Assembly (NCBI GenBank): GCA_949878435.1
Contig: CATLAK010000001.1
Span: 248,001-312,000 of the forward strand
Length of the DNA: 64,000 nt
Source: an uncultured Lachnospiraceae bacterium
Lineage (GTDB): Bacteria; Bacillota; Clostridia; Lachnospirales; Lachnospiraceae
Direction of reading: 5' to 3'
The position numbers and the translations under genes were made by a program. The notes below the pieces were generated by a model that saw nothing but the letters and a program-made list of their open reading frames with translations, was not told the DNA's origin and ran no database searches. Each line of letters opens with the position of its first letter. Positions within the stretch are counted from its first letter, which is position 1. Positions 24,834 through 50,492 of the stretch are shown here, piece by piece.

Positions 24834-25121
24834 TTAAACCTTTGATGATAATATTTCCCTGCCTCCATACATCTTCTCATGGTAATTCTGGTACTTCCCG
24901 CCGATGATTTCTCCCCACCAGGAGCGATTGTCCAAGTACCGTTTTATCGTCTTTTTGATGCCATCGGAGAACTTTATCTCTGGCTGCCATCCCAGCTCAT
25001 TATGAATCTTTGTCAGGTCAATCGCGTAACGCAAGTCATGGTTTTTCCAATCCGCCACATAGGTAATCAGATTTTCATTCTTCCCAAGTTCTTTTATGAT
25101 CAGTTTTTGATTGGACACCAA
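24834..25121 (-). pseudogene. dTDP-glucose 4,6-dehydratase (RmlB) C-terminal remnant
   Basis: A 95-codon frame matching the last quarter of RmlB: NLITYVADWKNHDLRYAIDL is the family's ITYVxDRxGHDxRYAID block, followed by ELGWQPEIKFSDGIKKTI and WY/WW-region residues. The Rossmann domain and catalytic TxxxYxxxK are absent, and an in-frame stop lies just upstream (TGA about 12 bases before the GTG). It is therefore a broken gene at the distal end of the polysaccharide locus. An intact rmlB must exist elsewhere if dTDP-4-keto-6-deoxyglucose is used. Confidence 0.8.
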
Positions 25122-26706: not shown

Positions 26707-27675
26707 CTAGCATGAGATTTCGTGTAATATATTGCGAACATTTTCTACCGTATCAAAAAAAGCCCGATATTCTTCCGGTTCCCATCGTTCCCTGATTCGC
26801 TGCTGTACACCAGAAGGTCCTATCACAGACGGTACTGATAATGCAATCTCCCTTACTCCATGTTCACCAAGCAAAGTAGATGAAACCGATGCAACAGTAG
26901 GTCTCTGGTTTATAACCGCATCCGCTATATAGCAAACGCATGTAGCGATTCCATAATGTGTCTTGCCCTTGGCACTGATGATTTCCGCTCCCATCATCCT
27001 GGTCTCCCTCGCGATTTGAGTTCTTACACTTTCGTTCCATTCAATTCCCGCATTATCGCAATATTCCCTTATCGGAATGCCACCGATTGTTACCCTGCTC
27101 CACAATGGAACTTGTCCATCGCCATGCTCGCCAACTAGGTATCCATTTATCACACCTGTACTGAGCCCAACATAATCCGCAATGGAACGGATAAATCTGG
27201 ATGTATCGAGCAAACAGCCTGTACCAAACACAGTACCATTACTCAGATGCATCCATTCATCTGTCTTATACGTCAGGATATCAACAGGATTTGAGATAAT
27301 AAGGACCACTCCGCGTGTGTAATATTTCTGTATGGATTCTGCAACGGAATGCATAATTCTTATGTTATCGTTTACCAAGTCAAGTCTTGACTCCCCTTTT
27401 CGGCGGTTCCTGCCAGCCGTAATAATGATCAAGTCACAATCCGCACAGTCAGGATAGTCGCCCGCATAAAGGTCGGCCGTCCCCATTCCGGAAATTCCAT
27501 GCCGAATATCCTTGGCCTCCCCAGCACACTTTTCGTGGTCTATGTCAATCAGTACGATTTCCCTGACAATGTCACGTATAGCAAGCGCATATGCTATAGA
27601 GGAACCGACATATCCAGCCCCTATGATTGCCACTTTACGATTTCCAATTGTAAAACCTGATTGCTTTCCCCTCAC
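26707..27675 (-). CDS. lactate/malate dehydrogenase family 2-hydroxyacid dehydrogenase
   Basis: A 322-residue NAD-dependent enzyme with the LDH/MDH fold: GAGYVGSS (19-26), SNPVDILTY, and the catalytic His184 in GEHGDG. The specificity loop reads AGRNRRKGESR, so the residue that is Gln102 in lactate dehydrogenases is Arg (Arg91 here), as in malate dehydrogenases; a Gln102Arg change is known to convert Bacillus LDH to MDH activity. The real substrate is therefore not clearly pyruvate. GTG start, AGGAGG about 10 bases upstream. An enzyme of this kind inside a capsule operon suggests a dedicated 2-hydroxyacid product. Confidence 0.85.
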   Translation of the reverse strand: MRGKQSGFTIGNRKVAIIGAGYVGSSIAYALAIRDIVREIVLIDIDHEKCAGEAKDIRHGISGMGTADLYAGDYPDCADCDLIIITAGRNRRKGESRLDLVNDNIRIMHSVAESIQKYYTRGVVLIISNPVDILTYKTDEWMHLSNGTVFGTGCLLDTSRFIRSIADYVGLSTGVINGYLVGEHGDGQVPLWSRVTIGGIPIREYCDNAGIEWNESVRTQIARETRMMGAEIISAKGKTHYGIATCVCYIADAVINQRPTVASVSSTLLGEHGVREIALSVPSVIGPSGVQQRIRERWEPEEYRAFFDTVENVRNILHEISC

Positions 27676-27699
27676 TCGTCGCTATCCTCCTGCATCCTA

Positions 27700-28914
27700 T
27701 TATGCGAAAATTACAGTTCTCGTAAGAAGTGCCGGCAAATTATACCCATCCCATATAAGGTCAAAGTCCATGGTTTTTCCCACAGGAACCACTCTGTCTA
27801 TTCCTTTCACTCCAGCTTTTATAAGGGGTAAGACTGTACTTTTATCACCAATATAGGCTACTGTCTGGCATCTCTTGTCGTCACACAATTTTTTAATATC
27901 CATTATGTCTGAGCAATCATACTCAAAAAAATAGCCGCTGTCATCTTTAAGCTCCATAAGCTCTCCAGTAATCTGGGGAATATTGACACGCACAATCAAA
28001 TTGTCTGTATGTGGTTCTATCCTGCATCCCGGCTGTAACGCTGAAATCAGATAAGCACTTATCAGCTTGTTCACCCCTTGAATCGGCTGGAAAGAATACT
28101 TCTTCTCCACAAGTCCATGAAGTATAGTCCAGAAATTTTTCTTTGCTTCCTGAATCCGACTGCCTATCCAGATAATGACCCTTGGACTGGTACATGCATT
28201 CTGGTCTGTGAAATATGTATCATTGTAGAAATCATCTGCAATTTTTTCTTTTTCATAAATTTCCATATAGCTGTCAGAGTCAATCACGGCAAAGGAATAA
28301 CGATCCGCAAAGGTAATCTCCCCGGAACGCGGCAGCAGTGCGGAACGTCTCAGTTCAGCTATCGTTGCATCCCCGCCCCAGACAATCCGTGTATCCGCAA
28401 CAGAAGAGAATAAGTCATTAATATCCTTATCTCTCCTATAACGCACCAGAAGCACATAAGGCTTCATATCAATAAACTCTTGCAAAACTTTGTTGAAAGC
28501 TCTCGCAAGGATACCAACCTGTGGAAAATCTTTTGATGGAACCCTTACGACATTGGCATTTCCTGTTATGAGTCCAGCAGCCAATGAATAAGCGAAGTTC
28601 ACCGGAACATTCGAAGGGGCAATATGGAAGGCTACTCCTTTGCCCAGGCGGACGACAGAATCAGTCTTCTCAAATCTTTCCTTGAGCTTAAGCATAGATG
28701 AATTTCTGATCCAAAAAGCAAATGTTATGACATCTGAATATGCTTTTGCCTCACGGTCAGACATCAGTTCTCTGGAGACACCGTTCAGGAAACTGACAAC
28801 CCTGTCCTCAAATGGAACCCTTGCCGGAACATATGGCAGTTCAGCAGCAACGTCTGCATTTCCAGTCAAAAAAACTACCTTTCCCAGTATTTCCTTATTT
28901 AAATTTTTCTGCAT
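27700..28914 (-). CDS. LuxC-like acyl reductase (aldehyde-forming)
   Basis: A protein of 404-414 residues matching the LuxC family (aldehyde dehydrogenase fold): GKGVAFHIAPSNVPVNFAYS and the active-site segment DQNACTSPR with the candidate nucleophile Cys (Cys251 counted from the longer start). LuxC reduces LuxE-bound or CoA-bound acyl groups to aldehydes with NADPH. It lies immediately after a LuxE homologue and overlaps it by 20 bases (50 if the start at 28944 is used); the start is not settled. No luciferase gene is present. Confidence 0.85.
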   Translation of the reverse strand: MQKNLNKEILGKVVFLTGNADVAAELPYVPARVPFEDRVVSFLNGVSRELMSDREAKAYSDVITFAFWIRNSSMLKLKERFEKTDSVVRLGKGVAFHIAPSNVPVNFAYSLAAGLITGNANVVRVPSKDFPQVGILARAFNKVLQEFIDMKPYVLLVRYRRDKDINDLFSSVADTRIVWGGDATIAELRRSALLPRSGEITFADRYSFAVIDSDSYMEIYEKEKIADDFYNDTYFTDQNACTSPRVIIWIGSRIQEAKKNFWTILHGLVEKKYSFQPIQGVNKLISAYLISALQPGCRIEPHTDNLIVRVNIPQITGELMELKDDSGYFFEYDCSDIMDIKKLCDDKRCQTVAYIGDKSTVLPLIKAGVKGIDRVVPVGKTMDFDLIWDGYNLPALLTRTVIFA

Positions 28915-29986
28915 ATGTATCGCTGCACCCCCGTATCTCCGCATTCTTTAATCTGCCATTGATCTTGAAATACTTTCCTTTCCGACCACATGGGCAGTCA
29001 TCCTCACCCAGTATCACGCCTTCATCCTCTGTCAGCAGGCTGTGTCCAGGATAAGATTCAGGGATTGTGGAAACGACTTGGACAATGCCAGTTTCTCCTA
29101 TTTTGCATTCTGCAAAATCAATCGGTCTCCTTACAATCACGTCAGAAAAATTACTTGCATGAAGATGTCCACACTCACACTCCATATATATACAACCTGT
29201 CTGCTCTGCCATTCCGTAATAGTCATGGATTGATCGCAGACCGCAGGCTTCTTCAAGTCTCTTATGGAATTCCTCGCAGCTTACAGCTTTTGAAACAAGC
29301 TTTTTCCACCCACCGCCATGTATCAGAATGCCATTCGAAAGATTGAAAACAGTCCCCTGTTCCTTCAGTCTCAGCAATTCCTCATAGAAGTGCTGCCATA
29401 TCATGAATGTAAAGCCAAATAGCAAAATTCTCTGATCTTTATATTTATCAAGAAACTCTCCTAATCCTTCCACATCCAGCTTCATATTGTCATCCAGCGC
29501 ATACATCTTCTCAGCTCCAAAAATCGAGAAGCCAAGAATGCCAGCTCCTCTTGCAGAGAACATTACCCTGTTTTTCACTACACTGGGACAATCAATAATA
29601 ATCATCGGCATACGGCTGGAGCCGGTAAAATCATTTACGATTTTCACCATAGTCTTCTGCTGGTTTGATGATGTGGTGCAGTCTAGATATATGCGGCTGA
29701 CAGCCTGCCCGGTAGTCCCAGAGGAAGTCATGGTCTTTACCACTTCTTCTTTCGGCACGGAGCGAAGTTCCATCTCCTTAAACATACGGACCGGAAGAAA
29801 TGGAAGTTCCGTATAACTGCCTACTTCTGTAACGTCAAACCCTATGCTCTCCAGTATCCGGGCGTACTCCGGACAATTTTCCCGGTGCATGACCGTCAGT
29901 TCCTTAAGTCTCTTTGTTAATAGCTTTTCCTTTTCTTCTCTTGGCAAAGAATATGGCGGAAGGCGCAAAATTTCCTCGAATGTCAT
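28895..29986 (-). CDS. LuxE-like acyl-protein synthetase
   Basis: A 363-residue acyl-adenylate-forming enzyme of the LuxE family. TSSGTTG (87-93) is the phosphate-binding loop, YYGMAEQTG an adenylate-binding block, and Cys354 in the C-terminal RGCSD motif corresponds to the cysteine that carries the acyl group in LuxE. It activates a carboxylic acid with ATP and passes it to LuxC. AGGAGG precedes the ATG; it begins two bases after the thioesterase gene. Confidence 0.87.
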   Translation of the reverse strand: MTFEEILRLPPYSLPREEKEKLLTKRLKELTVMHRENCPEYARILESIGFDVTEVGSYTELPFLPVRMFKEMELRSVPKEEVVKTMTSSGTTGQAVSRIYLDCTTSSNQQKTMVKIVNDFTGSSRMPMIIIDCPSVVKNRVMFSARGAGILGFSIFGAEKMYALDDNMKLDVEGLGEFLDKYKDQRILLFGFTFMIWQHFYEELLRLKEQGTVFNLSNGILIHGGGWKKLVSKAVSCEEFHKRLEEACGLRSIHDYYGMAEQTGCIYMECECGHLHASNFSDVIVRRPIDFAECKIGETGIVQVVSTIPESYPGHSLLTEDEGVILGEDDCPCGRKGKYFKINGRLKNAEIRGCSDTYAEKFK

Positions 29987-29987
29987 G

Positions 29988-30701
29988 TCATCCTCCTTTT
30001 CCTAAAATTCTCTCCTTGATAATCCTCGCCATTTCCTGATAATACTGGCTTATGAAAAAATGGTTCCCTTCAAATCGGAAGAATTCACATTTGCCAGTAA
30101 AAAACTTCCTCCATAGTTCCATTTCAGTTCTCGGGGTATCTGTTTCAGAATAAAAAATCGTTGCGGGAATTCCTGTCTTAAAGTCCAGATCCTCAAACCT
30201 GTATTTGGCAAGCAATGAATAATCCGCGCGGTAGATGGGAAGGTACATCCTCCAAAAACTTTTATTGTGAGTGAGTTTATCGGGGATTCCTCCAAATTTT
30301 ACTGTCTGCTCACGTATCCACTCATCCAGGCTTTCATCAGAAAACCCTTCTAATTCCGGTTTGGAATGTGGCTCATGGGCGGCAAGAAACACACAGCATG
30401 GGGGAGCTATTTCCTGGCATGCAAGCACCTTCCTCATCACCTCCGCCAGTACAATCGTTCCCATGCTATACCCAAACAGCGCATATTCCCCACCATTATG
30501 TCTACTTTTTATGAACCTATAGGCGTCATCTGCTAATTTCTCAAAGCTGCTATAAAAAGGTTCCTTATGCCTTGTACCATGACCTGCATATTCCAGCTTG
30601 TGAATTTCAATCCCTTTCAGTTCTTTGTCCAGCATATCAAAGAATGAAGCATTACCACCAGCATATGTAAAGCAAAATAAACTAATTTTAGCCATCATCA
30701 C
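29988..30701 (-). CDS. type II thioesterase (GrsT/TesA-like)
   Basis: A 237-residue alpha/beta hydrolase with the nucleophile elbow GYSMG (Ser79) and a C-terminal GNHFF histidine, plus the FTYAGGNASFF N-terminus seen in type II thioesterases of NRPS/PKS systems. It probably releases acyl groups from the small carrier protein encoded in the same operon. With LuxE and LuxC downstream, it occupies the role of LuxD in lux operons. The start overlaps the preceding glycosyltransferase stop (ATGA). Confidence 0.85.
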   Translation of the reverse strand: MMMAKISLFCFTYAGGNASFFDMLDKELKGIEIHKLEYAGHGTRHKEPFYSSFEKLADDAYRFIKSRHNGGEYALFGYSMGTIVLAEVMRKVLACQEIAPPCCVFLAAHEPHSKPELEGFSDESLDEWIREQTVKFGGIPDKLTHNKSFWRMYLPIYRADYSLLAKYRFEDLDFKTGIPATIFYSETDTPRTEMELWRKFFTGKCEFFRFEGNHFFISQYYQEMARIIKERILGKGG

Positions 30702-48089: not shown

Positions 48090-48815
48090 CTATATGTATT
48101 CATTCTTAATGACATGAACAGGATTCTCATATACAAGCCTTCTGGCAAACGCTTCACCGTACTTTCTGCTGATATAGCGCATGCATTCAGCCAGATCCGG
48201 TTTCCTTCGGTCCGGGTCATGGGCATCCGTTGCCACAAAATGAACCATCCCTTCCTTGAGCAGGCGCTTTGCAAACCCCTTTGTGCCAAGTCCATATTGC
48301 CCCATAATACTTCCGGCATTCACCTGTACATAACATCCCATTTCAATCAGTTCTTCTACTCTTTCCTCTTTTGCGCAAACATTCCTGTACCGCTCAATAT
48401 GGGCAATGATGGGACGATATCCGCCTGAAAGCACTTTATAAAGCCCTCTTCTTATATGCTCGAAGTCATCCATAGGATTAAACTCTACCAAAACATAAGA
48501 AGAACCTGCCATGGTGCATGCCCTGCCTTCCTCAAGCAATTCCAAAATATCACTGCGATAATAAATCTCATTCCCTGCATACAGCCGGATCTGCATCTTA
48601 CTTCCGGATATTTCTTTTTCCAGTTTTTGGATTACGCTTTGAATGGTTTCGGGACTGGCATTATGATGCATTGGCTTGTTATGAGGCGTCATAATGATCT
48701 GGCATATTCCGCTTTGCTCAGCAATATGCAGCATTTTCATACTCATCTCAAAATCTTCTGCTCCATCGTCTAATTGGGGCAAAATGTGGGAATGAATATC
48801 TATGTAAGAATCCAT
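48090..48815 (-). CDS. cpsB: CpsB/CapC-type PHP protein-tyrosine phosphatase
   Basis: A 241-residue metal-dependent phosphatase of the PHP fold: IDIHSHILPQLDDGAED (metal site), IIMTPHNKPMHHN, NEIYYR, PIIAHIERY and VATDAHDPDRR. It dephosphorylates CpsD and so regulates polymer synthesis. ATG 48813-48815 lies behind AGGTGAGG. It is the first gene of the polysaccharide operon and the one directly facing the invertible segment. Confidence 0.94.
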   Translation of the reverse strand: MDSYIDIHSHILPQLDDGAEDFEMSMKMLHIAEQSGICQIIMTPHNKPMHHNASPETIQSVIQKLEKEISGSKMQIRLYAGNEIYYRSDILELLEEGRACTMAGSSYVLVEFNPMDDFEHIRRGLYKVLSGGYRPIIAHIERYRNVCAKEERVEELIEMGCYVQVNAGSIMGQYGLGTKGFAKRLLKEGMVHFVATDAHDPDRRKPDLAECMRYISRKYGEAFARRLVYENPVHVIKNEYI

Positions 48816-48865
48816 CAGCCTCACCTGCGCTTCCTTGATTTTCCATCTCTGGCTTTTGTTTTTTG

Positions 48866-48894
48866 ATTTCGTAAATTTTCCAGATTTACGAAAT
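48866..48894. repeat. left recombination site (L) of the invertible segment
   Basis: A perfect inverted repeat ATTTCGTAAAT-N7-ATTTACGAAAT with a 7-bp spacer TTTCCAG, the layout of tyrosine-recombinase crossover sites. Its 17-base part at 48877-48893 is the exact reverse complement of the cores at 50368-50384 and 50419-50435. It lies 50 bases upstream of the cpsB start codon. Confidence 0.9.
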
Positions 48895-48929
48895 TAATTT
48901 GTAAACAGCCAAAATACAAATAAAAATAG

Positions 48930-48959
48930 AAAAAGCAGGACACTATTTTATGTCCTGCT
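48930..48959 (-). terminator. terminator of the recombinase gene
   Basis: AGCAGGACA and TGTCCTGCT form a perfect 9-bp stem with an 8-base loop; the minus strand continues TTTTCTATTTTTA. It lies 30 bases after the recombinase stop and before site L, so it shields cpsB from recombinase transcription. Confidence 0.85.
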
Positions 48960-48991
48960 GACGGTAATATTGACGGGCATTAAGATTCTAT

Positions 48992-50137
48992 TTATATAAC
49001 CGAGGAATAGCCCTGGTAAAAAGATATATCGAATTTTTCCATAAGCTGCCTTTTACGCTGCATATTAGAGTGAACATATAAGTTAAGGGTAACTTGTATA
49101 TTGCTATGCCCTAAAATCTCACTTAAACTTTTCACATCAAATCCCGTTTCTATGCAGCGGGTAGCAAAAGCATGGCGCAGCATATGAAAATTAAAGTTTT
49201 CAATACCGCACTTATGCAGAATCTGGGCAAACCGATATTGTAAAGTTCTCGGCTCCGTCCACGGCTTCTTCTTTCCTTTGATGATATATTGCCCATCCTC
49301 CTTCTTATGTTCCTTTAAATGGCAAAGAAGTATGGGCGGAATGGGAATGATTCTAAAAGAGTTAGATGTCTTGGGCGTCTGAATCAAAATCTGAGTGTTG
49401 CCCGCATCCGAAGCCTCTGATTTTACTCTTTGCAGATTCTTGCGAACATAGATAATCTCTTCATTTAGATTGATGTCCTCCCACTTAAGTGCACACACTT
49501 CTCCGATTCTGATGCCGGTATAAAATGCCGCCAATATGCCAAGGCAGGTGTCATTTGCAGCGTTTTCCAACAGGTACCTTTCTAAAACAGCCATATCCTG
49601 CTTTCTTGGAAGGATGATCTGCGTCTGCCGCACAGGCATGATCAAGTTTTCGGGAATGTCCATCTCATAATGATACTTTTTCTTTACATATTTCATTGCC
49701 CGCAGCATGACGGCACATATATTTCTCAAGTAAGAATCCGAAAGTATATTTTCCCCCTGCGTTCTGCCGATTTCCGATAAAAAATACTCTATCGTCTGCT
49801 CATCCACACAATCCACCCTGACATTTCCCAATAAAGGAATAATGTATTTATATGCCATCTGGCTGTAAGTGGCATAAGTGGTCTGCTTCCATCTAACACT
49901 GCGTTCCTTAAGCCAGATATTCATTGCCTCATCCAATGTGCCTTTCGTTTTTCCCACTATCCCGCTGTTTCTTCTTTGCTGTTCCATTTTATTTTTTACC
50001 TCGGTGTAGGTTTTCCCGTAAACAGAAATATACTTGCGGGAACTTCCTCCCATAGAACAGCAGGTTTCTTCCTTTTTGATGCGTCCCTCCCAACGCCCAT
50101 CCTTTCTTTTATAGATATTGACTCCTCGCTTTGGCAT
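48992..50137 (-). CDS. tyrosine site-specific recombinase
   Basis: A 381-residue phage-integrase-type recombinase with an N-terminal arm-type domain (about 1-60, RKDGRWEGRI), a core-binding SAM-like domain (about 65-165) and a catalytic domain with Arg210 (TGIRIGE), His318 and Arg321 (HMLRHAF), His344 (LGHSN) and the nucleophile Tyr354 (LNLYVHS). All five key residues are intact. No excisionase, relaxase or phage gene is nearby; the gene lies between inverted recombination sites, so its likely substrate is the local switch. AAAGGAG precedes the ATG. Confidence 0.93.
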   Translation of the reverse strand: MPKRGVNIYKRKDGRWEGRIKKEETCCSMGGSSRKYISVYGKTYTEVKNKMEQQRRNSGIVGKTKGTLDEAMNIWLKERSVRWKQTTYATYSQMAYKYIIPLLGNVRVDCVDEQTIEYFLSEIGRTQGENILSDSYLRNICAVMLRAMKYVKKKYHYEMDIPENLIMPVRQTQIILPRKQDMAVLERYLLENAANDTCLGILAAFYTGIRIGEVCALKWEDINLNEEIIYVRKNLQRVKSEASDAGNTQILIQTPKTSNSFRIIPIPPILLCHLKEHKKEDGQYIIKGKKKPWTEPRTLQYRFAQILHKCGIENFNFHMLRHAFATRCIETGFDVKSLSEILGHSNIQVTLNLYVHSNMQRKRQLMEKFDISFYQGYSSVI

Positions 50138-50221
50138 TTGTAACTCCTTTCTCTGTGACCAATAAATTGACGGTTAAAAAATTAAAAAGAACCAAATCTT
50201 ACAATTAAATATACCAATTTT

Positions 50222-50235
50222 GACATTTTAATGTC
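50222..50235. promoter_or_regulatory. 14-bp palindrome upstream of the recombinase gene
   Basis: GACATT-TT-AATGTC is a perfect palindrome about 85 bases before the recombinase start. A weak minus-strand promoter candidate (AGGACA, 18 bases, TATATT) overlaps it, so it could be an operator that limits recombinase expression. Seen by eye only. Confidence 0.35.
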
Positions 50236-50284
50236 CTTATTTCACAAAAAATCCATTTTGATTTGTATAATTTCAAATACACAC

Positions 50285-50313
50285 TTGACTCTTTTCCAAA
50301 GTTGTAATATAGT
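50285..50313 (+). promoter_or_regulatory. invertible sigma-A promoter
   Basis: TTGACT, 17 bases, TATAGT on the plus strand, within the invertible segment and pointing toward R1. Transcription would begin near 50320 and soon meet a GTGATTTG-N7-CAAATCAC hairpin (50321-50343), then R1 and R2, and end at the hairpin terminator 50448-50492. No gene is available in this orientation, whereas after inversion the first gene is cpsB. Confidence 0.8.
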
Positions 50314-50320
50314 TCATATA

Positions 50321-50343
50321 GTGATTTGGGCTACACAAATCAC
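50321..50343 (+). other. stem-loop at the 5' end of the invertible promoter's RNA
   Basis: GTGATTTG (50321-50328) and CAAATCAC (50336-50343) are perfectly complementary with a 7-base loop. The structure starts at the predicted first bases of the transcript. It could protect the 5' end or act in regulation of the polysaccharide mRNA; no U-run follows directly, although TTTTTTTG appears 10 bases later. Confidence 0.5.
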
Positions 50344-50366
50344 GTATTTATTACTTTTTTTGTTTC

Positions 50367-50395
50367 TTTTCGTAAATCTGGAAATTCTATGAAAC
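50367..50395. repeat. right recombination site R1
   Basis: TTTTCGTAAAT, spacer CTGGAAA and imperfect arm TTCTATGAAAC (7 of 11 to the left-site arm). Spacer and left arm match the reverse complement of site L exactly over 17 bases, so L and R1 are inverted partners. Confidence 0.88.
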
Positions 50396-50417
50396 GAATT
50401 CCCTGCTTTTGTACTGT

Positions 50418-50446
50418 TTTTCGTAAATCTGGAAATTCTATGAAAA
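50418..50446. repeat. right recombination site R2 (direct copy of R1)
   Basis: A second copy of R1, identical over 28 bases and offset by 51 bp in the same orientation. It could act as an alternative crossover site, or recombination between R1 and R2 could delete the 51 bp between them. A further TTTTCGTAAAT half-site with a different spacer follows at 50489-50499. Confidence 0.88.
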
Positions 50447-50447
50447 T

Positions 50448-50492
50448 AAAAGCCTTCAAAACAGTAACATGATTACTGCTTTGAAGGCTTTT
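50448..50492. terminator. bidirectional terminator at the right edge of the switch
   Basis: A long near-perfect hairpin: AAAAGCCTTCAAA pairs with TTTGAAGGCTTTT (13 bp), and an inner CAGTAA/TTACTG (6 bp) closes on a CATGA loop. U-runs exist in both directions (TTTT). It ends plus-strand transcripts from the invertible promoter and minus-strand transcripts of the small acidic protein gene. Confidence 0.88.

Follow-up and report, generated by a model that had tools for sequence, protein, structure and literature searches.

In the flagellar phase switch of Salmonella, Hin-fljBA, the invertible segment carries an outward promoter for the neighbouring operon; in Clostridioides difficile the recV gene lies outside the switches that its product controls; the capsule loci of Bacteroides have NusG-like first genes; and integrases of the Tn916 type use direct-repeat arm sites. 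Hin is named as an example of a recombinase encoded inside its own invertible segment (PMC5903667, in part), and belongs to the serine recombinases, with an enhancer bound by Fis (PMC3798978, in part). Invertible promoters are described that switch polysaccharide operons in Bacteroides fragilis, where at least thirteen regions across the genome depend on a single serine recombinase, Mpi, and RecV is described as acting on several separate switches (PMC5903667, in part). From the same source comes an 844-bp invertible segment of Providencia stuartii, which encloses a recombinase ORF near a fimbriae locus and has 14-bp inverted repeats, the part of the description at hand giving no recombinase class and no repeats beyond those 14-bp ones.

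The window analysed here, that is, the whole stretch of 64,000 nucleotides from an uncultured Lachnospiraceae bacterium, contains at the head of a polysaccharide operon a 1.5-kb segment between a site L and a site R1 (or R2), which segment is very probably a self-inverting promoter cassette. As in Hin-fljBA, the recombinase gene lies within the segment; the enzyme is, however, a tyrosine recombinase (Phage_integrase), with paired repeats of 12-bp period beside its gene, and hence neither a relative of Hin nor a DNA invertase of the Hin/Gin type. In contrast to the Mpi system of B. fragilis, each cassette has a private recombinase and site sequence inside the flipped segment, and instead of one global recombinase with many genomic sites we found the exact 17-bp core at three local sites only. 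The RecV switches of C. difficile (flagellar, cwpV) likewise combine a tyrosine recombinase, a clostridial host and surface functions, and the P. stuartii segment similarly has its recombinase ORF inside and a surface locus alongside, but belongs to gammaproteobacterial fimbriae. The cassette works like Hin, enzyme and promoter being carried on one flipping segment, and is akin to the Bacteroides promoters in its proposed capsule target, each cassette having an enzyme of its own. Its parts and layout, read directly from the window, are the following.

25240 to 48824, minus strand: polysaccharide operon (CpsB, Wzz, CpsD-like ATPase, LytR-CpsA-Psr, NeuB, flippase and others)
48090 to 48824, minus strand: cpsB, of the CpsB_CapC family, first gene of the operon, ORF from GTG 48824
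48867 to 48893, minus strand: site L, with inner arm TTTCGTAAAT, spacer CTGGAAA and outer arm ATTTACGAAA, 5'-3' towards cpsB
48934 to 48959, minus strand: terminator-like hairpin of intrinsic type, after the recombinase gene and before L
48960 to 48976, minus strand: two direct repeats of arm type, CCGTCAATATTACCGTC, with a period of 12 bp, following the stop codon of the recombinase gene
48992 to 50137, minus strand: tyrosine recombinase gene, 381 aa, intact
50157 to 50173, minus strand: two direct repeats of arm type, CCGTCAATTTATTGGTC, with a period of 12 bp, upstream of the RBS of the recombinase gene
50285 to 50313, plus strand: outward promoter TTGACT-17-TATAGT, facing away from cpsB as assembled and into cpsB once inverted
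50368 to 50394, plus strand: site R1, TTTCGTAAAT CTGGAAA TTCTATGAAA, retained in the congeners G306 and G308
50419 to 50445, plus strand: site R2, a 27-bp exact copy of R1, in the same orientation, 51 bp further outward
50448 to 50492, no strand assigned: 20-pair hairpin immediately beyond R2, facing the outward promoter, retained in G306 and G308

The 17-base inverted core on which the original prediction had been built was confirmed by a check of the sequence: the 17-mer TTTCGTAAATCTGGAAA lies in opposite orientations at 48877-48893 and 50368-50384, and the whole 3.4-Mb assembly holds exactly three copies, all within the switch locus, the third (50419-50435) sitting in R2. For the one further copy, which lies on C16 and has a single mismatch, no inverted partner is present within 1.5 kb. 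L and R1 form an inverted pair of 27 bp with an 89% match, and the L/R inverted sites in the window exceed chance. In our reading each site has an inner arm of 10 bases, a 7-bp spacer, whose exact length the sequence does not fix, and an outer arm of 10 bases (10-7-10); the 11-7-11 layout proposed earlier agrees with ours in the identical 7-bp spacer, but its arms are here read as 10 bases and not as 11. R2, the hairpins and the arm-type repeats did not figure in that earlier description. R2 is present in G308 and lost in G306, and the other four species of the genus considered below yielded a single R site each, which loss and absence leave R2 unsupported as an essential part.

The intact tyrosine recombinase said to lie between the oppositely oriented sites is present with its Phage_integrase and Phage_int_SAM_3 domains, and the residues R210, K256, H318, R321, H344 and Y354, which we take to be the catalytic ones, are invariant in 30 of 30 aligned recombinases, the window's included (the broken L112 copy being omitted from this alignment). 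A search of viral contigs with this recombinase returned no relative. Both repeat pairs are made of GTC motifs, are situated inside the segment and adjoin the recombinase gene, and they are predicted to be binding sites of the recombinase N-terminal domain. Tn916-type integrases likewise have short direct repeats by the gene, and their core-binding domain is preceded by a small N-terminal region; the system described here, by contrast, is read as serving promoter inversion, and its N-terminal region gave no Pfam match and no meaningful PDB sequence match.

The promoter TTGACT-17-TATAGT, pointing outward to the right, stands where it had been placed and has 10 of the 12 consensus bases; considered alone in the window it is not clearly beyond chance, since 0.07 of local shuffles score as well, but its relatives conserve it. 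At the other end of the segment, the hairpin at 48934-48959 should shield cpsB as long as the segment is oriented as assembled, presumably by terminating transcription, and by eye the five other species likewise have a hairpin between the recombinase and L, the sequence of its stem differing. The hairpin at 50448-50492 is called terminator-like by the scan on the minus strand only, its T-tail being poor in the direction of the outward promoter, so that termination of plus-strand transcripts there is uncertain. Between L and cpsB lie 42 nt if the first possible start (GTG 48824) is used, and 51 nt if the likely one is, namely ATG 48815, which follows AGGTGAGG; in that interval, where an independent promoter would speak against a switch, the window scan gave no promoter-like match. 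The predicted flip would leave 132 nt from the -10 element to ATG 48815, in keeping with the leader of about 125 nt foreseen for the inverted state. A hairpin within that leader (50321-50343) was considered as an attenuator and discarded, being poorly conserved by eye.

In the mechanism that we propose, the recombinase would exchange strands within the common spacer of the oppositely oriented L and R, which exchange would flip the segment, recombinase gene included. In the assembled, OFF state the outward promoter, presumably an active one, would fire away from the capsule operon, with the hairpin at 50448-50492 ahead of it, and transcription of the recombinase gene would stop at that gene's own hairpin before L; in the flipped, ON state the promoter would read through the hybrid site and the leader into cpsB. 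We infer that inversion of this kind takes place at the window's locus. The switch would, moreover, govern the entire 25.2-48.8 kb operon, of which all the genes are on the minus strand over 23.6 kb. Within the operon, terminator scans stayed at chance level, and promoter scans of both strands together were at that level or slightly higher, with 36 matches versus 33.1 expected in one part, and in the other 48 where 36.9 (sd 6.6) were expected; intergenic gaps of 230-240 nt occur at two places.

To compare the locus within its genus, we searched 37 genomes, 9 of which proved to have recombinase homologues (E 1e-60 or better). Seven switches head capsule-type operons: those of the window, G306 (IMSAGC_005), G308, G321, G319, G301 and G318, with cpsB adjoining the switch in the first six and a LytR-CpsA-Psr gene in G318. 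In all seven the recombinase gene runs in the direction of the operon and the promoter end faces away, so that the comparison of related assemblies for the opposite order, as had been suggested, gave a single orientation for the window and its six congeners (that of G306 being read from two contigs). None of nine switches was ON when the two cassettes before LytR-CpsA-Psr genes (L144 and L145) were counted with these seven, which result fits a biased or rarely flipping switch and is no positive evidence of inversion at the window's locus.

The sites themselves were compared in six species of the genus, the window's included and G306 having the window's spacer in that count. The spacer is the same in L and R at 7 of 7 bases in every one of the six, and reads CTGGAAA, CTAGAAA, CATGAAA, CTTAAAA, CTGAAAA or TATATAA according to the species, with only 2-6 of 7 positions identical between species. 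The inner arm is likewise the same in L and R (10/10 in 6/6 species, G308 being scored on R2 because its R1 is off by one base), and L and R have different outer arms in each of the six, with 6-8 of 10 bases in common, as expected if only the inside would turn. Identity of the L and R spacers in the face of change between species is what recombination requires, and neither decay nor chance repeats would maintain it.

An outward promoter of the form TTGAYW-17-TAWAGT was recognised by eye inside R in all six species; the best automatic match agrees in five of them, and in L109 it picks another, equally scored. Two cpsB loci that lack a recombinase, L105 in G310 and L107, the second cps locus of G308, have instead a fixed promoter pointing into cpsB, which shares 37 of 43 bases with the outward promoter of the window and lies 140-141 nt from -10 to ATG, compared with the 132 nt predicted in the window. 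Such operons can accordingly be driven without a switch. The homology of the outward promoter to that of cpsB, together with the hairpin between the recombinase and L, makes OFF the best reading of the assembled orientation.

The single orientation of the seven switches would also suit a formerly working switch that is now locked OFF, its capsule operon being silent or driven from elsewhere. Two members of the genus lend this some substance, the recombinase frame of G301 being interrupted and the segment of G306 carrying an insertion that has inverted ends, with 9 bp duplicated where the window has 50268-50276, so that some copies of the switch may be locked. For the window we consider this improbable: its recombinase is intact and retains the presumed catalytic residues, and decay would not maintain identical L and R spacers that change between species. 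Nor does a one-sided assembly count against a working switch, since 1011 of 1837 gut invertons have a minor orientation of at most 1% in the part of PMC11892184 consulted.

Inverted alleles were found in more distant relatives; the recombinases of two of these, G270 and G114, are only about 38-40% identical to that of the window. In the Tad pair G270/G341 the TadZ-side flank matches at 92% and the segment is inverted at 75%, the other flank having no match; at the TadZ-side site the outer end is retained and the inner flank swapped, and the site core differs between the two species and is the same at both ends within each. In the genus of G114, three pairs heading polysaccharide-type operons match on both flanks with the cassette alone turned, at identities of 89% (G354/G114), 92% (G354/G362) and 82% (G359/G356). 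An exchange of the outer site flanks is recognisable at both ends in G354/G114 (16/17 and 16/17) and in G354/G362 (13/15 and 15/15), and at one end in G359/G356. A shared neighbour also stands on opposite sides in L127/L170, in L179 versus L181 and L182, in L132/L183, and in the paralogous pair L141/L148 within G114.

The genus of G114 further permitted a count of states. Its 34 listed recombinase places yielded 30 fetched loci (G358 C240, G358 C178, G362 C199 and G367 C60 being omitted), 26 of which have sites that match at no fewer than 20 of 21 bases. After setting apart four siteless loci (L199, L205, L218, L223) and five whose neighbour was not recognised (L201, L204, L206, L227, L228), we assigned 17 polysaccharide-type cassettes to OFF (16 NusG-led and one sugar-transferase-led) and 4 to ON (three NusG-led and one sugar-transferase-led), which 21 are not independent, because many are paralogues. 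Behind one of the NusG-like genes Pfam recognised a sugar transferase and a glycosyltransferase, and behind another, glycosyltransferases and a DegT aminotransferase. Set beside the Bacteroides capsule loci, the operons of this genus often start with NusG-like genes and are mostly OFF, a predominance that the genus of the window shares. No genome of the genus had two operons ON; a mutual exclusion of ON states is only a suggestion, since 4 ON among 21 would often yield such a pattern by chance.

These comparisons bear on a further alternative, according to which the segment would be a small integrated element or a phage or ICE remnant, its repeats being attL and attR and the element excising. 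The integrase-type domains of the recombinase agree with such an origin, as do the arm-like repeats beside the gene, which resemble those of integrating elements. We nevertheless rejected it as highly unlikely: the identical spacers are inverted and not direct, the promoter is the sole cargo, and the related segments of sister species are inverted with both flanks retained instead of being absent. Furthermore, neither L105 nor L107 offers a plain empty site, the recombinase-less G310 allele containing the promoter turned round, in the opposite direction. The least probable reading of all, in which the assembled state would be ON, cps being transcribed from the recombinase promoter by read-through, and the outward promoter would serve something else, can invoke the collinearity of recombinase and cpsB and the one orientation seen in the genus, but is disfavoured by the terminator-like hairpin between recombinase and L in six species and by the homology of the outward promoter to the fixed cpsB promoter, which outward promoter has no evident target in the window, given that the genes beyond R face the cassette and that a hairpin stands there.

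The self-inverting promoter cassette, predicted at the outset as a switch that heads the cps operon and is shown OFF, is therefore the reading that we retain, as four comparative lines in relatives support it: spacers that co-vary in six species; a homologous cpsB promoter at two recombinase-less loci; hairpins between recombinase and L in six species, and beyond R in the closest relatives; and related cassettes that are naturally inverted between sister species.

To ascertain how far such cassettes extend, we sampled 299 genomes of the family, finding homologues in 64 (E 1e-40 or better), and 391 genomes of the class, with homologues in 38 (E 1e-50 or better). From more places listed by these searches, 58 homologues were examined as loci (L020-L048 and L170-L198), some of them cut by contig ends. 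Inverted sites at 21 or more of 23 bases flank 33 of the 58, another 7 have them at 20, and 18 are without; among mismatched site pairs, none of 400 draws came to 21 of 23, and two of 400 came to 20. Six other integrases of the window's genome, which served as a control after the exclusion of L003 and L009 (two of eight, from which no full reading frame was recovered), gave a best inverted-site match of at most 17. Four loci taken without prior knowledge of their sites (L148-L151) all had inverted sites.

In addition, we described 31 cassettes in detail: the window's, five of the genus and 25 further loci, 21 of which had been chosen for their sites in a first scan, the other four being L148-L151. 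An outward promoter at the R end reaches a shuffle value of 0.05 or less in 20 of the 31, with seven exact TTGACA-17-TATAAT, and does not reach it in 11, among which are the window and L145 (0.85); no cassette has an outward promoter at 0.05 or less at the L end. The GTC repeats of 12-bp period were found on the gene strand upstream of the recombinase in 24 and downstream in 22 of these 31 loci, mostly selected for having inverted sites, and on the opposite strand in 1 and 0, respectively, with a shuffle expectation of 0.28 upstream and 0.20 downstream. They tend to accompany a conserved N-terminal motif of the recombinase, occurring in 26 of 27 copies with the motif and in 0 of 4 without; a single genome supplied all four motif-less copies, and the broken L112 copy was assigned by hand to the group with the motif. 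By hand count the repeats were present at 25 of the 33 strong-site loci, at 6 of the 18 siteless ones and at none of the 6 own-genome controls, the 7 borderline loci (20 of 23) falling outside this split; some homologues carry the N-terminal motif and have neither repeats nor inverted sites.

The neighbours of the cassettes include LytR-CpsA-Psr, epimerase, glycerophosphotransferase, IspD-like, NusG-like and TadZ genes; they are not always surface genes, since a helicase, regulators and a methyltransferase occur too. Of the 56 neighbours listed, 30 were scanned with Pfam: 20 from the 27 at the L end and 10 from the 29 at the R end.

Gut invertons were reportedly surveyed by Jiang and others in 2019. 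In the open-licence PMC literature we found no description of a recombinase-promoter cassette family among the matches listed, nor is there one in the parts of PMC11892184, PMC10939037 and PMC5903667 at hand. Those parts do report invertons in Clostridia-like genomes, among them a group 145 with tyrosine recombinase genes nearby (PMC11892184), and clostridial inversions near signalling genes (PMC5903667), so that the published Clostridia invertons may overlap with the family described here.

We put forward tentatively, as a possibility that falls somewhat short of an even chance, that the cassettes form a Clostridia-wide class, in which private recombinase-promoter units flip before one operon, often a surface one (capsule, teichoic-type or Tad pilus), and in which the flanking arm-type repeats bind the N-terminal domain of the recombinase and bias the switch to OFF. 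If this were true, genera with several NusG-led operons would possess a multi-capsule, mostly-OFF system of an origin independent from that of Bacteroides. Phase-variable capsules are thought to shape the encounters of gut bacteria with phages, immunity and mucus, and the work on capsule inversion among the matches listed concerns largely Bacteroides, and also Akkermansia. The present finding points to a separate, widespread solution in the Clostridia, in which the operon carries its own flipping enzyme and promoter; the states of the switch should therefore be readable from ordinary metagenomes, whereby the questions of why OFF dominates, and of whether a cell expresses one capsule at once, become directly testable.

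The end sequence CAGCTTTGAAAGG occurs in inverted orientation on both contig ends in IMSAGC_005 (G306), a genome of the window's genus, and is accompanied by a 9-bp duplication, the insertion point being placed as follows.

50268-50276 of the window: homologous position of the insertion in loci L118/L119 of G306, marked by the inverted ends and the 9-bp duplication.

These features mark an IS-like insertion that separates the recombinase from the outward promoter. In G301, another genome of the genus, a frame change breaks the recombinase reading frame (L112 2866-3977), so that this copy may be either locked or mis-assembled.

At the right-hand end of the window's switch, the recombination sites R1 and R2 (50368-50445) are direct copies spaced 51 bp apart, and recombination between the two would entail the loss of those 51 bp. 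R2 has been lost in G306, and G308 retains both sites. The latter genome also carries, some 20 kb away from its switch, a second cps locus (L107 4366-5258), in which the promoter is fixed and an adjoining recombinase is absent.

Within the window's polysaccharide operon, 26707-30701 encodes a lactate/malate dehydrogenase-like protein, a thioesterase, and two further proteins:

26707-30701, gene within: LuxC, acyl-CoA reductase
26707-30701, gene within: LuxE, acyl-protein synthetase

This gene set is an unusual acyl-modifying module. At the operon's end, a 95-aa ORF (24834-25121), whose match to the GDP-mannose dehydratase family is confined to that family's C-terminal part and falls slightly under the cut-off, is possibly a truncated remnant.

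In another genus, cassette-linked operons of the polysaccharide type (L225, L226, and relatives among L200-L224) are headed by NusG-like genes, sometimes two in tandem, which are reminiscent of capsule antiterminators.
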